Source: Candidatus Coatesbacteria bacterium | GTDB taxonomy: Bacteria > RBG-13-66-14 | Reading direction: 5' to 3' | Assembly: GCA_014728225.1 (NCBI GenBank) | Contig: WJLX01000043.1 | Location: forward strand, 1 to 36,043 | Length of the DNA stretch: 36,043 nt | In this document: positions 5,838 to 28,256 of the stretch, one piece after another | Numbering within the stretch: the first letter of the stretch is position 1 | How the letters are laid out: every line of letters begins with the position of its first letter | Notes under the pieces: generated by a model | The model's input: only the letters and a program-made list of their open reading frames with translations | Databases searched by the model: none | What the model was told of the DNA's origin: nothing | Translations under genes and position numbers: made by a program

Positions 5838-5845
5838 ACGGCGGC

Positions 5846-6114
5846 GGCGCCGGGTTGGTCGCCGGGCCGCTTCCCGCCGATGACCGGCGGCGCCTGGTTG
5901 GTCGCCGGGCTGCTTCCCGCCGATGACCGGCGGCGCCTGGTTGGTCGCCGGGCTGCTTCCCGCCGATGACCGGCGGCGCCTGGTTGGTCGCCGGGCTGCT
6001 TCCCGCCGATGACGGGCGGCGCCTGGTTGGTCGCCGGGCCGCTTCCCGCCGATGACCGGCGGCGCCTGGTTGGTCGCCGGGCCGCTTCCCGCCGGATGAC
6101 CGGCGGCGCCGGAT
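5846..6114. repeat. 43-bp tandem repeat array, six units
   Basis: The sequence GGTTGGTCGCCGGGC starts at 5853, 5896, 5939, 5982, 6025 and 6068, exactly 43 bp apart. Units differ only by scattered changes (CTGCTT or CCGCTT; one GACGGG; one extra G in the last unit). Each unit holds CCGGCG/CGCCGG and CCGCCG/CGGCGG inverted repeats, so alternative hairpins are possible. Because 43 is not a multiple of three, the open frames across it are by-products. Units abut without unique spacers, so it is not a CRISPR array. It is bounded by palindromes F1 and F2. Confidence 0.92.
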
Positions 6115-6622: not shown

Positions 6623-7603
6623 TTAGACCTCGAACAGGCTGCGCTTGGCGGCGATGGCCTTGCCGGCGGCGGAGAGGGCGCTGATGCCGTTGGGGCAGCG
6701 GGCGGCGCAACGGGCGCAACCCACGCAGTACTTGGCCAGCTCCTCGACGCGCTCGTAGTTGCCCAGCCGGGTCTCGAGCACCATGGTCATCGGCAGGGGG
6801 ACGTCGTCCTCGACGCGGCCGACGGGACAGACGCCGACGCAGGCCTGGCAGTTGTAGCAGTTGAGGCTCTCGCCGGTGTCGCGGACGACGACGCCGGAGA
6901 TCATGAAGTCGAGGAGGAAGATGATGCCGTAGATGATGCAGAGCTGGAAGATCATCTCGCGGCTGAACTCGCCGTAGGTCAGCCACTGGAGCGCCTCGAC
7001 GTAGAAGGGCTGCTCGCCGGCGCCGCCGGCCTGTTGCAGGGCCTCGTAGGCGGCGGCCTTGACGCCGTCGGAGGTGTAGGTGGCCCCGGAGACGGCGTCG
7101 ACGTCGAGGGTCCGGGCGGCGGCGATCCGTTCGGGCAGTTGTTCGAGGGCCTCGTCGACGGCGGGCCGGCCCTGGGATTCGCTTTCGGCGGTGACGGCGA
7201 GTTCGACGATCCCGCCGCTGGAGACCTCGGCGGTCACTTCGAGGGGGTCGACGGCGTTCTTGCCCACTCCGTTGCCGACGTAGGTGCCGGGCTGCAGGGC
7301 CTCGAAGTCGATGCGCTCGGCTTGTTCGAGCAGGTAGAAAGCGCCGGTCAGTACGGCGGGGACGCTCAGCACCAGGGCGACCAGCACCAGGCGGTTCTTC
7401 TTGGCCCAGCGTCGACCCGGACCGAGGAAGAGGAAACTGAAGCCCAGGATCAGCACCAGCAGCAGGCGCGCCGGGGGGAAGAAGACGGCCACCACGATCG
7501 TCGCCAAAGCGATGCGCCAGGAGCGCCGCGGTAGCAGCTTGGCCGCCAGGTAGCCCTCGCCGCGGTTACGGGGGCGCTCGACTGTCGCCTCAGCGGTCGG
7601 CAA
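6623..7603 (-). CDS. Membrane FMN-binding / dicluster 4Fe-4S electron-transfer protein
   Basis: The 326-aa protein has hydrophobic segments at about 31-62 (probably two helices split by PP) and 71-90, then an FMN-binding domain (about 100-195) with the flavinylation motif DAVSGATYTS (170-178; Thr175 is the expected FMN-linked residue), another helix at about 217-240, and two ferredoxin clusters: C249-C252-C255-C259 and C293-C296-C299-C303. Positive-inside reasoning puts the flavin domain outside and the Fe-S clusters inside, as in the NosR/RnfG style of transmembrane electron transfer. Covalent FMN attachment would need ApbE, which is not in the window. The start is TTG, fixed by AGGAGG six bases upstream, and overlaps the preceding gene by 14 bp, so translation is probably coupled. 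It is last in the operon. Confidence 0.88.
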   Translation of the reverse strand: MPTAEATVERPRNRGEGYLAAKLLPRRSWRIALATIVVAVFFPPARLLLVLILGFSFLFLGPGRRWAKKNRLVLVALVLSVPAVLTGAFYLLEQAERIDFEALQPGTYVGNGVGKNAVDPLEVTAEVSSGGIVELAVTAESESQGRPAVDEALEQLPERIAAARTLDVDAVSGATYTSDGVKAAAYEALQQAGGAGEQPFYVEALQWLTYGEFSREMIFQLCIIYGIIFLLDFMISGVVVRDTGESLNCYNCQACVGVCPVGRVEDDVPLPMTMVLETRLGNYERVEELAKYCVGCARCAARCPNGISALSAAGKAIAAKRSLFEV

Positions 7604-8255
7604 CCTGGACCTCCTCGCCGGCCCGGCTCTCGATGATGGCCAGCATTTCGTCGTACAGGCGGGCGACCTTCTCGTAGCCTTCGCGGGCGTAGCGCGCCCG
7701 GGCGGCCTCGACGGTCAGCGGTTCCCGGGTCTGGGGATCGATGAAGCCCTGCTCGAGGACCAGCTCGGGTGAGACCTTGCCGTCGGCCAGGGCCTCCAGG
7801 GTCAATTCCTGCATCCGGGCGGCGATCTCCGGGATGTTGATCTCCAGGATGCACCACTTGGTGCAGTTGCCGCACTGGATGCAGCGCAGGCCGCCCTGGC
7901 GGATGAAGCGCTCATAGTCGGCGGTCCGGCTGGCCACGACCATCTCGACGGGGTAGATGAACTCGGGGCAGTTCTCGCCCTCGGGCTGGGAGAGGACGCG
8001 CATGCAACTGCGGTCCTCCAGGCAGTAGACGGAGTAGCCCGTACCGATGAAGACGGCTTTGAAGATGACGAAGGTAAGCGCCAGGGCGATGATCACCATG
8101 GCGATGCGGTTGAGGTGCTTGGTCAGCATCCGGTGCTGACTCTTGGAGATGAACTGGTAGCGCCGGACGCCGGGCAGGACCTCGATCTCCTCCCGCGGCC
8201 GGTCGTAGACCAGCTGCTCCTTGTCTTGACCCGACTGTTTGTTCTTGTCGGCCAT
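7590..8255 (-). CDS. Membrane-anchored 4Fe-4S protein (HdrC-like)
   Basis: The 221-aa protein has a charged N-terminal tail, one membrane helix (about 50-71), three extra cysteines (78, 84, 96) and a single complete cluster motif CIQCGNCTKWC (C125, C128, C131, C135), followed by a helical region (about 140-215). The motif and length resemble the ferredoxin-like subunit HdrC, but only one cluster is visible and no CCG-type HdrB partner is nearby. It most likely passes electrons to or from the flavin/Fe-S protein encoded by the overlapping next gene. The start is ATG at 8255 with only a weak ribosome binding site, 16 bases after the small membrane protein. Partner and direction of electron flow are inferred. 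Confidence 0.8.
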   Translation of the reverse strand: MADKNKQSGQDKEQLVYDRPREEIEVLPGVRRYQFISKSQHRMLTKHLNRIAMVIIALALTFVIFKAVFIGTGYSVYCLEDRSCMRVLSQPEGENCPEFIYPVEMVVASRTADYERFIRQGGLRCIQCGNCTKWCILEINIPEIAARMQELTLEALADGKVSPELVLEQGFIDPQTREPLTVEAARARYAREGYEKVARLYDEMLAIIESRAGEEVQVADR

Positions 8256-8271
8256 GGTTTGCTCGGGGGTT

Positions 8272-8424
8272 CTAGGTCAGCAGGTAGAGGACGGCGACGA
8301 TCACCCCGCCCAGGGCGCCCTGGAGGATGGCCTTGCGGGTGCGGAAATCCATCGCGTAGGCGATGATGGCCCCGGAGACGGCGCCGCCGAAGAGAAAGGC
8401 CAGCCATTTGGTCAGCTCGGTCAT
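8272..8424 (-). CDS. 50-aa two-helix membrane protein related to the transporter tail
   Basis: A short frame, ATG at 8422-8424 to TAG at 8272-8274, encodes 50 residues: MTELTKWLAFLFGGAVSG, a helix, a short loop DFRTRK, and a second helix LQGALGGVIVAVLYLLT. AGGGAGG lies eight bases upstream of the ATG. It fits tightly between the transporter gene (10 bp upstream) and the 4Fe-4S gene (16 bp downstream), so it is a real operon member. Its FGGAVSG and QGALGG segments match LGGAVAG and QGAVGG in the last 58 residues of the 606-aa transporter, suggesting it arose by duplication of that tail. Function is unknown; it may be a small subunit. Confidence 0.8.
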   Translation of the reverse strand: MTELTKWLAFLFGGAVSGAIIAYAMDFRTRKAILQGALGGVIVAVLYLLT

Positions 8425-8434
8425 CGTCGCCTCC

Positions 8435-10255
8435 CTAGGTCGCCAGGAGCAGGGCCCCGGCGATCGCTCCGCCGACGGCTCCCTGGGCCAGGGTGGTCAG
8501 GAAGGGGGCCGTGCCGGCGATGGCGAAGAAGCCGCTGGGATCGGGATAGAACAGGGCGATGCTCATCAGTACGCCGGCGACGGCGCCGCCCAGCAGGAAG
8601 GTGATCCAGGTGGCGGTGTTCTGCTCGCGCTCCTGGGTCGGAGTGCGGCGCTTCTTGAAGGTGTTGGGGTTGATCAGCTTGACCACCCCGAAACTGAACA
8701 GGAAGACCACGGCCAGCAGGCCGAAGTAGATCGCCAGGTTGGAGAGGGTGAAGGGGTTGTGGCTCAGGACGAGGAAGCGCATCGTCAGGGCCGCCAGGGG
8801 GGTCATGCCGACGAGGATGCCGAAGCTCTGGGCGTTGCGCAGGTAGCCGATCTCGGAGCGCACCATCCCCTCGGAGATGGTGCCGATGCCCCCGATGGGA
8901 CTGGGTCCGCAACTGGCCGCGGCGTTGACGATGAAGGCGGCCAGCACGCAGGCCAACTGATCACCGGAGAGCAGGCCGGAGGCGCCGGGCATCCAGCCCG
9001 ACTTGGGTCCCATGGCGACGACGACGGGCAGCAGGGCCGCCGCCAGGATCCGCCCGCAGGGCATGGGCAGGATGGTCTCGAGCTGGACGAACAGGGCGAT
9101 CATCCCCGCCACGCCCAGGCCGATACCGAGGATCTTGAACTCGGCCAGCCAGCGCAGCAGGTCGCTGAGGGCCTCGAAGCCGCCGGAGACGGCCAGGGAG
9201 CCGGCCATCAGAAAACCGGCCACCAGGGCCGTTATCGGGTGGAGGATGATCCCGGCGATCACCTGGCGGATCGACAGCCGGGCGATGACCATGATCAGCA
9301 CCGTGGCCACCAGCAGGGTGGTGGTGATCGGCGTCTTGCCGAAGAGGTTGAAGACGGCGCCGATCAGGGCCAGCAGGAAGATGCCCAGGGAGATGTAGCC
9401 GACGAGGGGGGCCTTGAACTTCTCGGCGATGGCCTTCTCTTCCTCGGGCGTCGGCTGGGCGGGTTCCTCGGCGACGACGGCGTCGTCGGCCGTGGCGGCG
9501 CCGACGGACTTCGGGGATGGCGAGCCTTCCGCGGCGAGCTTGGAGGGGCCCGCGCTCAGGCGGATCTTCTCGTCCATGTCGAAGCGGGTGATGAACAGGC
9601 TGATGAACAGCGCCGTGAAGGCGGTGCCGATCATGATGCCGAATTCCTGGGCGTTGGTCAGCAGGCCCAGCTCCTGGAGGAAGCCCTCGCCGATCTGGCC
9701 GATGCCGCCGATCTGGCTGGGTCCGCAACTGGCCGCGGCGTTGACCGCCAGGGCCGTCACCAGGACCACCATCTGCTTCTTGGTGATCAACCGGGTGCCC
9801 TCGGGCCCCAGGGTGATGATCACCGGCAGCAGGGCCGCCGCCTGGATGCGCCCGCAGGGCATGGCGAAGATGGTGGCGAACTGGGCGATGAAGACCAGGG
9901 TGCCCGCCATCCCCAGCGGGGTGCCGCGCATCTTGTTGATGACCACCCGCAGGGCGGCGAAACCGCCGGAGCCCTCCAGGGCGCCGGCGATCAAAAAGCC
10001 GCCGGCCATGGCCATGATCGGCAGCAGGATCACGTTGGAGCCCACCGCCGAAGGCAGGCTGAGCAGCTCGGACAGGTTGCCTCCGTCCAGCCATTTGCCT
10101 AGGGCCGCCAGCAGGATATTCACCAGCGCCCCCAGGACCAGCAGCGTCTGGAGGGGCAGGGGGATCAACCGCCGGCCGCCGACCATCAGCAGGGGACCGA
10201 GGACGCAAAAAATAAAAACAACCAGGGACAGGATGCTGATAACCTCAGAGGCCAA
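8435..10255 (-). CDS. Polytopic membrane protein with internal duplication, putative transporter
   Basis: The 606-aa protein is almost wholly membrane-embedded and built from two homologous halves. Half one contains MPCGRI (132-137) and NAAASCGPS-x-IGGIG (172-186); half two repeats both (398-403 and 444-458). A charged, acidic and proline-rich linker (about 227-283) joins the halves, as expected for an ion-transporter-like fold in which the two polar hairpins meet in the membrane. A separate two-helix tail (about 549-606) follows. I do not recognise a named family and cannot give a substrate. The start is TTG at 10255, with AGGAG five bases upstream. It leads an operon with a 50-aa membrane protein and two Fe-S proteins, so coupling of transport to redox chemistry is a reasonable guess. 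Confidence 0.8.
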   Translation of the reverse strand: MASEVISILSLVVFIFCVLGPLLMVGGRRLIPLPLQTLLVLGALVNILLAALGKWLDGGNLSELLSLPSAVGSNVILLPIMAMAGGFLIAGALEGSGGFAALRVVINKMRGTPLGMAGTLVFIAQFATIFAMPCGRIQAAALLPVIITLGPEGTRLITKKQMVVLVTALAVNAAASCGPSQIGGIGQIGEGFLQELGLLTNAQEFGIMIGTAFTALFISLFITRFDMDEKIRLSAGPSKLAAEGSPSPKSVGAATADDAVVAEEPAQPTPEEEKAIAEKFKAPLVGYISLGIFLLALIGAVFNLFGKTPITTTLLVATVLIMVIARLSIRQVIAGIILHPITALVAGFLMAGSLAVSGGFEALSDLLRWLAEFKILGIGLGVAGMIALFVQLETILPMPCGRILAAALLPVVVAMGPKSGWMPGASGLLSGDQLACVLAAFIVNAAASCGPSPIGGIGTISEGMVRSEIGYLRNAQSFGILVGMTPLAALTMRFLVLSHNPFTLSNLAIYFGLLAVVFLFSFGVVKLINPNTFKKRRTPTQEREQNTATWITFLLGGAVAGVLMSIALFYPDPSGFFAIAGTAPFLTTLAQGAVGGAIAGALLLAT

Positions 10256-10337: not shown

Positions 10338-10365
10338 GAAACCGCGCTTTTCCCGGAAAACGGTT
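10338..10365 (-). terminator. Terminator of the response-regulator gene
   Basis: AACCG and CGGTT (10340-10344 and 10361-10365) with inner TTTT/AAAA pairing form a hairpin that overlaps the stop codon of the regulator gene. On the minus strand it is followed by TCTTCCC. It separates the regulator from the transporter operon. Confidence 0.45.
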
Positions 10366-10748
10366 CAGTCAGCACCCTGCGACGACCGACGGCGATGGAC
10401 CTCTTCCACCTTGCGGGCCACTTCTAGCGGGTCGAAGGGTTTGTGCATGATCATCTCGGCGCCGATCTCGCGGCTGATGCGGGTGGTCAGCTTGTCGTCG
10501 AGGGCGGTGAGAATGACCACGGGCAGGGCGGCCAGTTCCGGGTCCTCGGCCAGGGTGTGGTAGGTGGCGAAGCCGTCGGCGCCGGGCATCATGATGTCCA
10601 GCATGACGATGTCCGGTTTCTGATTCCGGACCACGGGGATGACCTTGAGCGGGTCCGATAGGGTGACGGCCTGATGGCCCAGACGCTTGAACGCCAGGGA
10701 AAGGGTCTCGAGAATGTGATCTTCGTCGTCGACGATCAAGACTTTCAT
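10365..10748 (-). CDS. Single-domain CheY-like response regulator
   Basis: From ATG at 10748 the protein is 127 aa, exactly one receiver domain. Acidic residues DDE (7-9), phospho-acceptor D51 in VMLDIMMPG, the switch T81 and the conserved K103 (HKP) are all present. There is no output domain, so it acts through a partner protein, as in CheY or Spo0F-like relays. A longer frame upstream is arginine-rich and unlikely to be translated. No histidine kinase is in the window. A REC-GGDEF gene lies 146 bp upstream on the same strand. It ends before the redox operon with a terminator in between, so a link to that operon is unproven. Confidence 0.9.
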   Translation of the reverse strand: MKVLIVDDEDHILETLSLAFKRLGHQAVTLSDPLKVIPVVRNQKPDIVMLDIMMPGADGFATYHTLAEDPELAALPVVILTALDDKLTTRISREIGAEMIMHKPFDPLEVARKVEEVHRRRSSQGAD

Positions 10749-10894
10749 TGCGTCGCCGTTTCTCCTGCGGCGCCGTTGCCGAGATGGGGAACCGGCCACG
10801 GTTCCGATACCCCCATTTCTCCAGCGCCAAGGTCAATAATACAAGCTCAAATCCCTTTCGGCAAGCATTCGAGGGGTGATGAGATGTGTTTGCT

Positions 10895-11896
<1,002 letters not shown>

Positions 11897-11992
11897 GGGT
11901 CGGGGGTCTCCCAGCGGGGCCGGTGCGAGAAGGGCGGCTGACGTGCAGACGGTGGAACAGGTAGGCGGTCGCGAAGGGACAAAGCGCTCTAA

Positions 11993-12006
11993 GTGATAAA
12001 TATCAC
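11993..12006. promoter_or_regulatory. CRP/FNR-like palindromic operator
   Basis: The perfect palindromic arms GTGATA and TATCAC, separated by AA, form GTGA-N6-TCAC, which also reads TGAT-N4-ATCA. This combines the core of CRP and FNR-family sites. It lies six bases after the nadD stop codon and upstream of the REC-GGDEF gene, and stands out as AT-rich in GC-rich DNA. No CRP/FNR gene is in the window. Confidence 0.45.
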
Positions 12007-12011
12007 AAGCT

Positions 12012-12590
12012 TTAGCCGCGACGATACAACCTGCTCTCGGCAATATAGCCAATTACAGGGTCCGGGGTCAAGTAACGTAGTGAACGCCCCGCCACGACGT
12101 GTTTGCGCAACAGGGTGCTGGAAACGCCGAAGGGCGGCATCTCGAGGGCCCGGGTCCGGGTTCCCGGCGGTAGCACGCCCTCGTCGATCGTCACCCCGGG
12201 GCGGGGCACGTAGGCGAAGCGCACCAGGCGGACCAGCTCGCCGATGCGGTGCCAATCCTCCAGTTCGACGAGGTTGTCGGCGCCGACGAGGAGCCAGGGT
12301 TGTTCCAGCCCCAGGCGCTCGACAGTTTCGATGGTGTAGGACAACCCGCCGCGACGCAGCTCGAGTTCGGTCAGCGCGAAGGCCGGATTATCGGCCAGGG
12401 CCAGCTCGAGCATCGCCAGCCGGTCGGCCGCCGAGGCCCGGGGAGATCGATCGCGGTGGGGACCCCGGGCCGCCGGGACGAAGATAATCCGCCCCAGCTC
12501 CAACTGATCCCGGGCCGTCTCGGCGAGTAACAGGTGACCGTAGTGGATGGGATCGAAGGTGCCGCCGAAGATTGCCGTCTCACCAGACAT
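12012..12590 (-). CDS. nadD: Nicotinate-nucleotide adenylyltransferase
   Basis: NadD joins ATP and nicotinate mononucleotide to make deamido-NAD in NAD biosynthesis. The nucleotidyltransferase signature GGTFDPIHYGH lies at the N-terminus (about residues 9-19). It is followed by FVPAARGPHR (substrate loop), LVGADNLVELEDW in the middle, and the C-terminal ISSxxLR-like VSSTLLRKHV with SLRYLTPDPVIGYI. At 192 aa it has normal length. I chose the ATG at 12590; GGAGG lies 12 bases upstream, while a TTG four codons earlier is too close to it. A TATAAT near 12717-12722 may be its -10 element. Confidence 0.96.
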   Translation of the reverse strand: MSGETAIFGGTFDPIHYGHLLLAETARDQLELGRIIFVPAARGPHRDRSPRASAADRLAMLELALADNPAFALTELELRRGGLSYTIETVERLGLEQPWLLVGADNLVELEDWHRIGELVRLVRFAYVPRPGVTIDEGVLPPGTRTRALEMPPFGVSSTLLRKHVVAGRSLRYLTPDPVIGYIAESRLYRRG

Positions 12591-27821: not shown

Positions 27822-27868
27822 GTCACGGCGCTGATGCTGTTGACGTTCAGTTATGGAACCACGCCGCA

Positions 27869-28256
27869 GGAGCGCGGCTGGGCCGGCTGGAGGATAAACT
27901 GGCAAAACGGCGGCGCCGAAGCTGAAGACCTATGACAAAGGGTCCTTGGCGAAGGAGCGCAGATGGGCCGGCTGGAGGATAAACTGGCAAAATGGCGGCG
28001 CCAAACTGAAGACCTTGACAAAGGGTCCTTGGCGCAGGAGCGCAGCTGGGCCGACTGGAGGATAAACTGGCAAAACGGCGGCGCCGAAGCTGAAGACCTA
28101 TGACAAAGGGTCCTTGGCGCAGGAGCGCAGATGGGCTGGCTGGAGGATAAACTGGGAAAATGGCGGCGCCAAACTGAAGACCTATGACAAAGGGACCTTG
28201 GCGAAGGAGCGCAGATGGGCTGGCTGGAGGATAAACTGGGAAAATGGCGGCTGGGG
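27869..28256 (+). repeat. Tandem ~84-bp repeats: duplicated ribosome site and start region
   Basis: The gene at 28215 is preceded by four copies of its own beginning, with start-codon positions at 27878 (CTG), 27963 (ATG), 28046 (CTG) and 28131 (ATG), spaced 85, 83, 85 and 84 bp. Each unit holds AGGAGCGC as ribosome site, then GGGC-GGCTGGAGGATAAACTG, a TGGCGGCGCC region and GACCTATGACAAAGGG. The copy at 28131 is an intact 18-codon frame, MGWLEDKLGKWRRQTEDL then stop (28131-28187). The copy at 27963 lacks one base at its stop and reads on for 46 codons through the next unit. Only the last copy runs into the full gene. Confidence 0.85.

Follow-up and report, generated by a model that had tools for sequence, protein, structure and literature searches.

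A conserved Coatesbacteria redox operon built around an Ion Transporter-fold protein with four invariant cysteines

The 36,043-nucleotide stretch of Candidatus Coatesbacteria DNA analysed here (assembly GCA_014728225.1, contig WJLX01000043.1, positions 1 to 36,043, GTDB lineage RBG-13-66-14; hereafter the window) carries on its minus strand a compact set of four genes for membrane-bound proteins, designated T, S50, F and FMN. T (8435..10255) encodes a 606-amino-acid membrane protein with an internal duplication, four invariant cysteines and, according to structure models, the Ion Transporter (IT) fold. It is followed by S50 (8272..8424), encoding a 50-amino-acid membrane protein homologous to the C-terminal tail of T, by F (7590..8255), encoding a 221-amino-acid membrane-anchored ferredoxin with two 4Fe-4S motifs, and by FMN (6623..7603), whose 326-amino-acid product consists of an anchor, a flavin mononucleotide (FMN)-binding domain, a second anchor and two 4Fe-4S motifs. 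T and S50 are separated by 10 bp and S50 and F by 16 bp, F and FMN overlap by 14 bp, and the ribosome-site-like sequences GGAG, GGAGG and GAGGAGG stand ahead of the T, S50 and FMN starts, respectively; judging from this spacing, the four genes are probably co-transcribed. Orthologues of T within the family are 77–92% identical and are followed by the same genes, so the four open reading frames can be taken as real genes. They form a tightly spaced, conserved unit, larger in relatives, and all four frames, with the motifs listed in the initial annotation of the locus, were found on the minus strand.

Against the Pfam family CitMHS (PF03600), T scores 28.9 bits, under the 31.9 cut-off; no NCBIfam entry matches it, and a PDB sequence search with T alone and with a 26-row profile returned no match. 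The AlphaFold2 (AF2) model of the window protein has a predicted local distance difference test score (pLDDT) of 75 and a predicted template modelling score (pTM) of 0.79, and that of a homologue from a Desulfomonile metagenome-assembled genome (MAG) a pLDDT of 82 and a pTM of 0.83. In Foldseek searches both models retrieve IT-superfamily structures with E values of about 1e-5 to 1e-6 and probability 1.0, and VIA-align superposes them on NaS1 at Z 21.4 (421 residues, 4.3 Å) and Z 22.8 (417 residues, 3.7 Å); overall, the fold matches NaS1/NaDC3 at Z 21–23 and ArsB at about Z 17. By these models, T has the IT-superfamily fold of VcINDY, NaS1 and ArsB, with its two inverted repeats. The duplication noted initially is pronounced: the halves are 48% identical over 150 residues (E 1e-37), whereas halves of CitMHS proteins compared likewise do not exceed 33% in alignments longer than 50 residues, with E no better than 1e-13. 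The suggestion of a putative transporter among redox genes is borne out in the fold of T, and the family, initially called unknown, can now be placed within the IT superfamily by its modelled fold. No relative of T was found on viral contigs. The fold-match lists of both models contain no RnfA/E chain, an absence that does not exclude a relation.

In an alignment of 31 T proteins, with relatives down to 34–36% identity, 20 columns contain any cysteine and only C134, C177, C400 and C449 are invariant (31/31 each); the four are paired across the internal duplication. Cys134 (codon 9854..9856) lies in the MPCGRI motif and Cys400 (9056..9058) in its second copy, Cys177 (9725..9727) in NAAASCGPSQIGGIG and Cys449 (8909..8911) in NAAASCGPSPIGGIG, all read on the minus strand. 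In the window model they fall in helix breaks at residues 130–134, 177–183, 396–400 and 448–456, and all four occupy equivalent breaks in the Desulfomonile model. Profile alignment with CitMHS assigns C134 to the tip of hairpin HPin, C400 to the tip of HPout, C177 to L5ab, the unwound loop of transmembrane helix 5 (TM5), and C449 to L10ab, that of TM10; a global alignment was used for this mapping because the local profile-profile alignment covered only 88 columns. In VcINDY, the hairpin tips and the unwound TM5 and TM10 form the Na+ sites Na1 and Na2, with the substrate between them (PMC9098524). At both tips of T the SNT/DN motifs of CitMHS are replaced by (M/L)(P/S)C(G/S/A)R. MPCGRI itself varies to LSCSRI or LSCARI in relatives, with the cysteine and arginine kept, and R136 and R402, the two invariant arginines, stand at the hairpin tips. 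No CitMHS protein in the set has a cysteine within three columns of the C134, C177 or C400 positions, and even the most divergent T, that of genome G308, retains all four.

The partners of T are redox proteins, S50 excepted, which is homologous to the last 50–60 residues of T by blastp and is matched by the T profile in 10 genomes. F, initially described as an HdrC-like one-cluster protein, in fact carries two four-cysteine cluster motifs, and its nearest named match is the ferredoxin region of RnfC; the second cysteine of the first motif is replaced by Asp (Asp81 in the window protein) in the window lineage and in a Planctomycetota relative, the motif reading YCLEDRSC in the window lineage and YCYECRAC elsewhere. 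The FMN protein scores 36.8 bits against PF04205 (FMN_bind, cut-off 22) and 37.9 bits against Fer4_8 (cut-off 27), and matches solved FMN-domain structures. Its predicted flavinylation site is Thr175 of an SGAT motif (codon 7079..7081, minus strand). Its initial description as a flavinylated two-ferredoxin protein fits the window but not every lineage: the threonine is kept in Coatesbacteria, and most of the KSB1 and Desulfomonile proteins have an altered site (HGSIEAT, RGARLT, RGAEQT), in operons that also encode a multihaem cytochrome, while locus L064 retains RGAT. Across loci L065–L078, the flavinylation threonine is lost beside the multihaem cytochrome, as though the covalent flavin had been exchanged for haem. 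The charge pattern of the FMN protein suggests a cytoplasmic ferredoxin domain and an FMN domain on the outside, and its own membrane helices bear no cofactor motif. Because its Fe-S clusters and its flavin would thus lie on opposite sides, an electron carrier in the middle of the membrane would be needed.

An ApbE gene, which the initial annotation had proposed to look for, is present in the 2.96 Mb host genome. ApbE alone proves nothing about the T operon, since Rnf/Nqr-type genes occur elsewhere in that genome. The initial statement that Rnf/Nqr core genes are lacking holds for the operon, where PF02508 matches none of the four proteins, but not for the genome, in which PF02508 genes lie on contigs C135 and C28, as in most of the family. 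PF02508 genes were not found in four genomes of the phylum (group f3), all of which have the F-FMN module.

Loci of relatives were gathered solely by similarity to T and come from Coatesbacteria, one Planctomycetota MAG, KSB1 and Desulfobacterota-type genomes; several are near-duplicates, so locus counts overstate their independence. The neighbourhood is conserved across several phyla: of the 27 loci whose sequence continues for 0.7 kb or more beyond T, 26 have F downstream of it; in the f3 genomes, F is 7–13 kb from T. A match of T to a known transporter usually found without Fe-S neighbours, or a neighbourhood that is not conserved, had initially been named as what would tell against the idea; T does match known transporters in fold, but its neighbourhood is conserved and the idea survives. 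In relatives the gene order is a NHL propeller with a twin-arginine translocation (TAT) signal, m118 (one helix and a CxxC domain), T, S50, F, FMN, a cytochrome c with seven CxxC (NrfH/NapC-like plus c7), p156 (a two-cluster ferredoxin), FeS (Fer2 plus two 4Fe-4S) and FAD (a flavoprotein). The propeller, whose best named match is ScyF, and m118, which has no Pfam family, are near-constant upstream of T outside family f1 (L044–L046, L063–L078). Several loci continue with a c7 cytochrome, a PsrB-like ferredoxin, an NrfD-like protein and a molybdopterin oxidoreductase, genes that sit between FMN and the cytochrome in KSB1-type loci. In six loci (L072, L074, L124, L126, L065 and L078) the T operon includes or runs into the PsrB-like and NrfD-like genes together with a TtrA/PhsA/QrcB-like molybdopterin oxidoreductase, some with a c7 cytochrome.

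In the window genome p156, FeS and FAD are on another contig, C11, which begins at the gene before p156; the cytochrome of the related operons was not found in this genome. The Planctomycetota relative (G041) is likewise divided, with T-F and FMN-p156-FeS-FAD on two contigs (L059 and L128). A 43-bp tandem repeat (6.2 copies, 97% matches) occupies positions 5842–6110 of the window, between the operon end and uvrC, and with the probable rest of the operon on C11 it is a possible site of misassembly. At the divergent T locus of G308 (L127, contig C215, 1566–7740), F is retained alongside a two-cluster ferredoxin, and the 12 kb covered there encode neither an FMN domain nor a fumarate reductase. 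Besides Fe-S proteins, this locus encodes a DsbD_2 (PF13386) protein and one that is DUF1858-like, and it may represent an ancestral or a variant version of the system.

The larger operon also supplies what the initial annotation had missed in expecting no oxidoreductase partner. The FAD subunit on C11 keeps the FrdA/NadB catalytic residues His233, Glu246, the Arg of EPRD, His356 and Arg391 (FrdA count), aligned and identical in 7/7 members compared, and has Asn where the FAD-linking His stands (Ser in NadB). These residues point to a flavoprotein of fumarate reductase/succinate dehydrogenase type, with fumarate or succinate as its probable substrate. No cytochrome b anchor was seen near the FAD and FeS genes, the neighbourhood being the extent of the search for anchors.

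The best reading of these data is that T carries electrons across the membrane, perhaps with ion coupling, as part of an electron-transfer system linked to fumarate/succinate. More specifically, we lean, by a narrow balance, towards a complex that transfers electrons across the membrane, with T, S50, F and FMN as its membrane core and with the Na+ sites of T turned into a four-cysteine metal centre. Both Na+ sites, at the hairpin tips and the unwound TM5 and TM10, would have been converted into one buried, pseudo-twofold centre that most probably holds iron or an Fe-S cluster. Through it T would pass electrons between the cytoplasmic 4Fe-4S clusters of FMN, F and p156 and the extracytoplasmic FMN domain, in whose place a multihaem cytochrome c may serve as the partner of T in other lineages. 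At the cytoplasmic end would stand the FAD flavoprotein with its Fer2 and two 4Fe-4S subunit, and electrons appear to exit via p156, F, FMN and T rather than through a cytochrome b anchor. What the data show are the modelled fold, the invariance and position of the cysteines, a gene neighbourhood that is conserved, redox proteins as partners and the residues of the active site; the metal, the contacts between subunits, the way the electrons run and any coupling to Na+ or H+ by alternating access are inferred. The initial idea of redox-driven or redox-gated transport is kept in part: a redox-driven ion pump is possible, but T is more likely an electron conduit than a redox-gated solute transporter, because its paired motifs resemble a four-cysteine metal or Fe-S site at the old Na+ sites.

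Several observations weigh against this electron-carrier reading. In 14 of the 24 CitMHS proteins a cysteine lies no more than three columns from the place of C449, which is thus not unique to T and leaves only three of the four positions clearly new. F has one predicted helix preceded by positive residues, and the positive-inside rule would place its clusters outside. One single-contig MAG (G012, 89% complete) has a T with all four cysteines and no F or FMN, another (G013, 78% complete) has S50-F-FMN and no T, and every named relative is a MAG of an uncultured organism. The most ordinary of the rival explanations, which we nevertheless regard as unlikely, makes T a true fumarate/succinate transporter feeding the enzyme of the same operon, with electrons travelling via F, FMN and the cytochrome and the cysteines being structural or regulatory. 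The best fold matches of T are indeed dicarboxylate and sulfate carriers of the DASS family, the FAD subunit retains a fumarate/succinate active site, and R136 and R402 at the hairpin tips could bind carboxylates. Cysteine is, however, a poor Na+ ligand, and it is in exactly these tips that the SNT/DN motifs have given way to (M/L)(P/S)C(G/S/A)R; G308 keeps T and ferredoxins with no fumarate reductase gene in the 12 kb covered, and a transporter would leave no cofactor crossing the membrane.

Two further explanations are less likely than the dicarboxylate transporter. The cysteines, paired in two inverted halves, could make T an elevator-type thiol/disulfide shuttle like CcdA/DsbD, moving reducing equivalents through cysteine pairs with no metal. 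IT folds move as elevators (PMC7553777), the m118 protein adjoining T has a CxxC and the G308 locus encodes the DsbD_2 protein. This shuttle seems improbable: every constant partner of T is a one-electron protein of the Fe-S, flavin or haem kind, nothing thioredoxin-like was seen among the scanned neighbours, and the cysteines of T are flanked by Arg and Gly without forming a CxxC. Thiols also bind soft metals and arsenite, and ArsB is among the best fold matches, as would suit a T that uses redox power to carry or export a thiophilic solute (a metal ion or an oxyanion of As, Se or S) held by the four cysteines; yet nothing recognisable as an ars or metal-resistance gene turned up in the conserved neighbourhoods, whose constant members are respiratory genes of the fumarate-reductase and Psr types, and we give this the least credence of all.

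Directly upstream of T, after a gap of 109 bp, lies a response-regulator gene (10365..10799, minus strand) that is also found upstream of the T orthologues of the family. Two response regulators, one with GGDEF, occupy positions 10365–12052 and are kept in the family; they were not seen adjoining T in other phyla. Elsewhere in the window, positions 27868–28251 hold an 85-bp tandem repeat of 4.6 copies, or alternatively 2.3 copies of 168 bp.

Should the electron-carrier reading be correct, the operon would encode a predicted energy-coupling complex of Coatesbacteria, KSB1 and Desulfomonile-type anaerobes, tied to fumarate/succinate chemistry and joined in some to a molybdoenzyme, and it would show a route from a secondary transporter to a primary redox pump. 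Desulfomonile- and Syntrophaceae-type anaerobes would gain from ion-driven succinate oxidation. No description of the T operon was found in the literature covered, most subscription journals lying outside that coverage.

Of the known systems, Rnf and Nqr offer the closest parallel in arrangement. In RnfA/RnfE, four invariant cysteines at unwound-helix kinks of two inverted halves hold Fe or a [2Fe-2S] cluster, and the proposal is that reduction drives Na+ binding and alternating access as well (PMC9588780, PMC11889175). T shares with RnfA/RnfE and NqrD/NqrE (PF02508) the four invariant cysteines, the unwound-helix breaks in mid-membrane and the inverted halves, a likeness taken as one of arrangement and not of homology, and the whole system would likewise have ferredoxin donors inside, a flavinylated FMN domain outside and possibly ion coupling by alternating access. 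In contrast to RnfA/E, T is a single chain of IT fold without a PF02508 match, with a metal centre that is only predicted, and its operon has no RnfD/NqrB and no NADH or quinone site. The authors of a 2025 Rnf structure state that no systems but Rnf and Nqr have a membrane-buried [2Fe2S] cluster (PMC11889175). Were T to contain such a centre, the same problem would have been solved a second time, on a fold with well-studied ion coupling. It is tempting, if somewhat short of an even bet, to see in T a third, independently evolved membrane-buried Fe-S carrier, with the cluster at the former Na+ sites of an IT/DASS fold, acting as a redox-driven, elevator-type ion pump linked to fumarate/succinate.

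With the IT superfamily (DASS/VcINDY, NaS1, ArsB and CitMHS) T has in common the fold over about 400–420 residues, inverted repeats, hairpin tips and unwound TM5 and TM10, and it departs from that superfamily in its cysteines in place of SNT/DN, its far more similar halves, its score under the Pfam cut-off and its near-constant Fe-S neighbours. The FAD subunit and its Fer2 and two 4Fe-4S partner resemble FrdA/SdhA/TfrA/NadB in all catalytic residues, and differ in the replacement of the FAD-linking His by Asn and in having no apparent cytochrome b anchor route. Finally, five membrane components are known in flavin-linked extracytosolic electron transfer, namely NapH-like, MsrQ-like, PepSY, DsbD and RNF/NQR-like proteins (PMC8238504). 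The T operon resembles these systems in its FMN_bind domain with SGAT outside, Fe-S clusters inside and ApbE in the genome; none of the five components has a match among the four window proteins, supporting the view that the operon belongs to none of the named classes of such systems. On this sequence-based comparison, T would be a sixth kind of membrane component in flavin-linked extracytosolic electron transfer.

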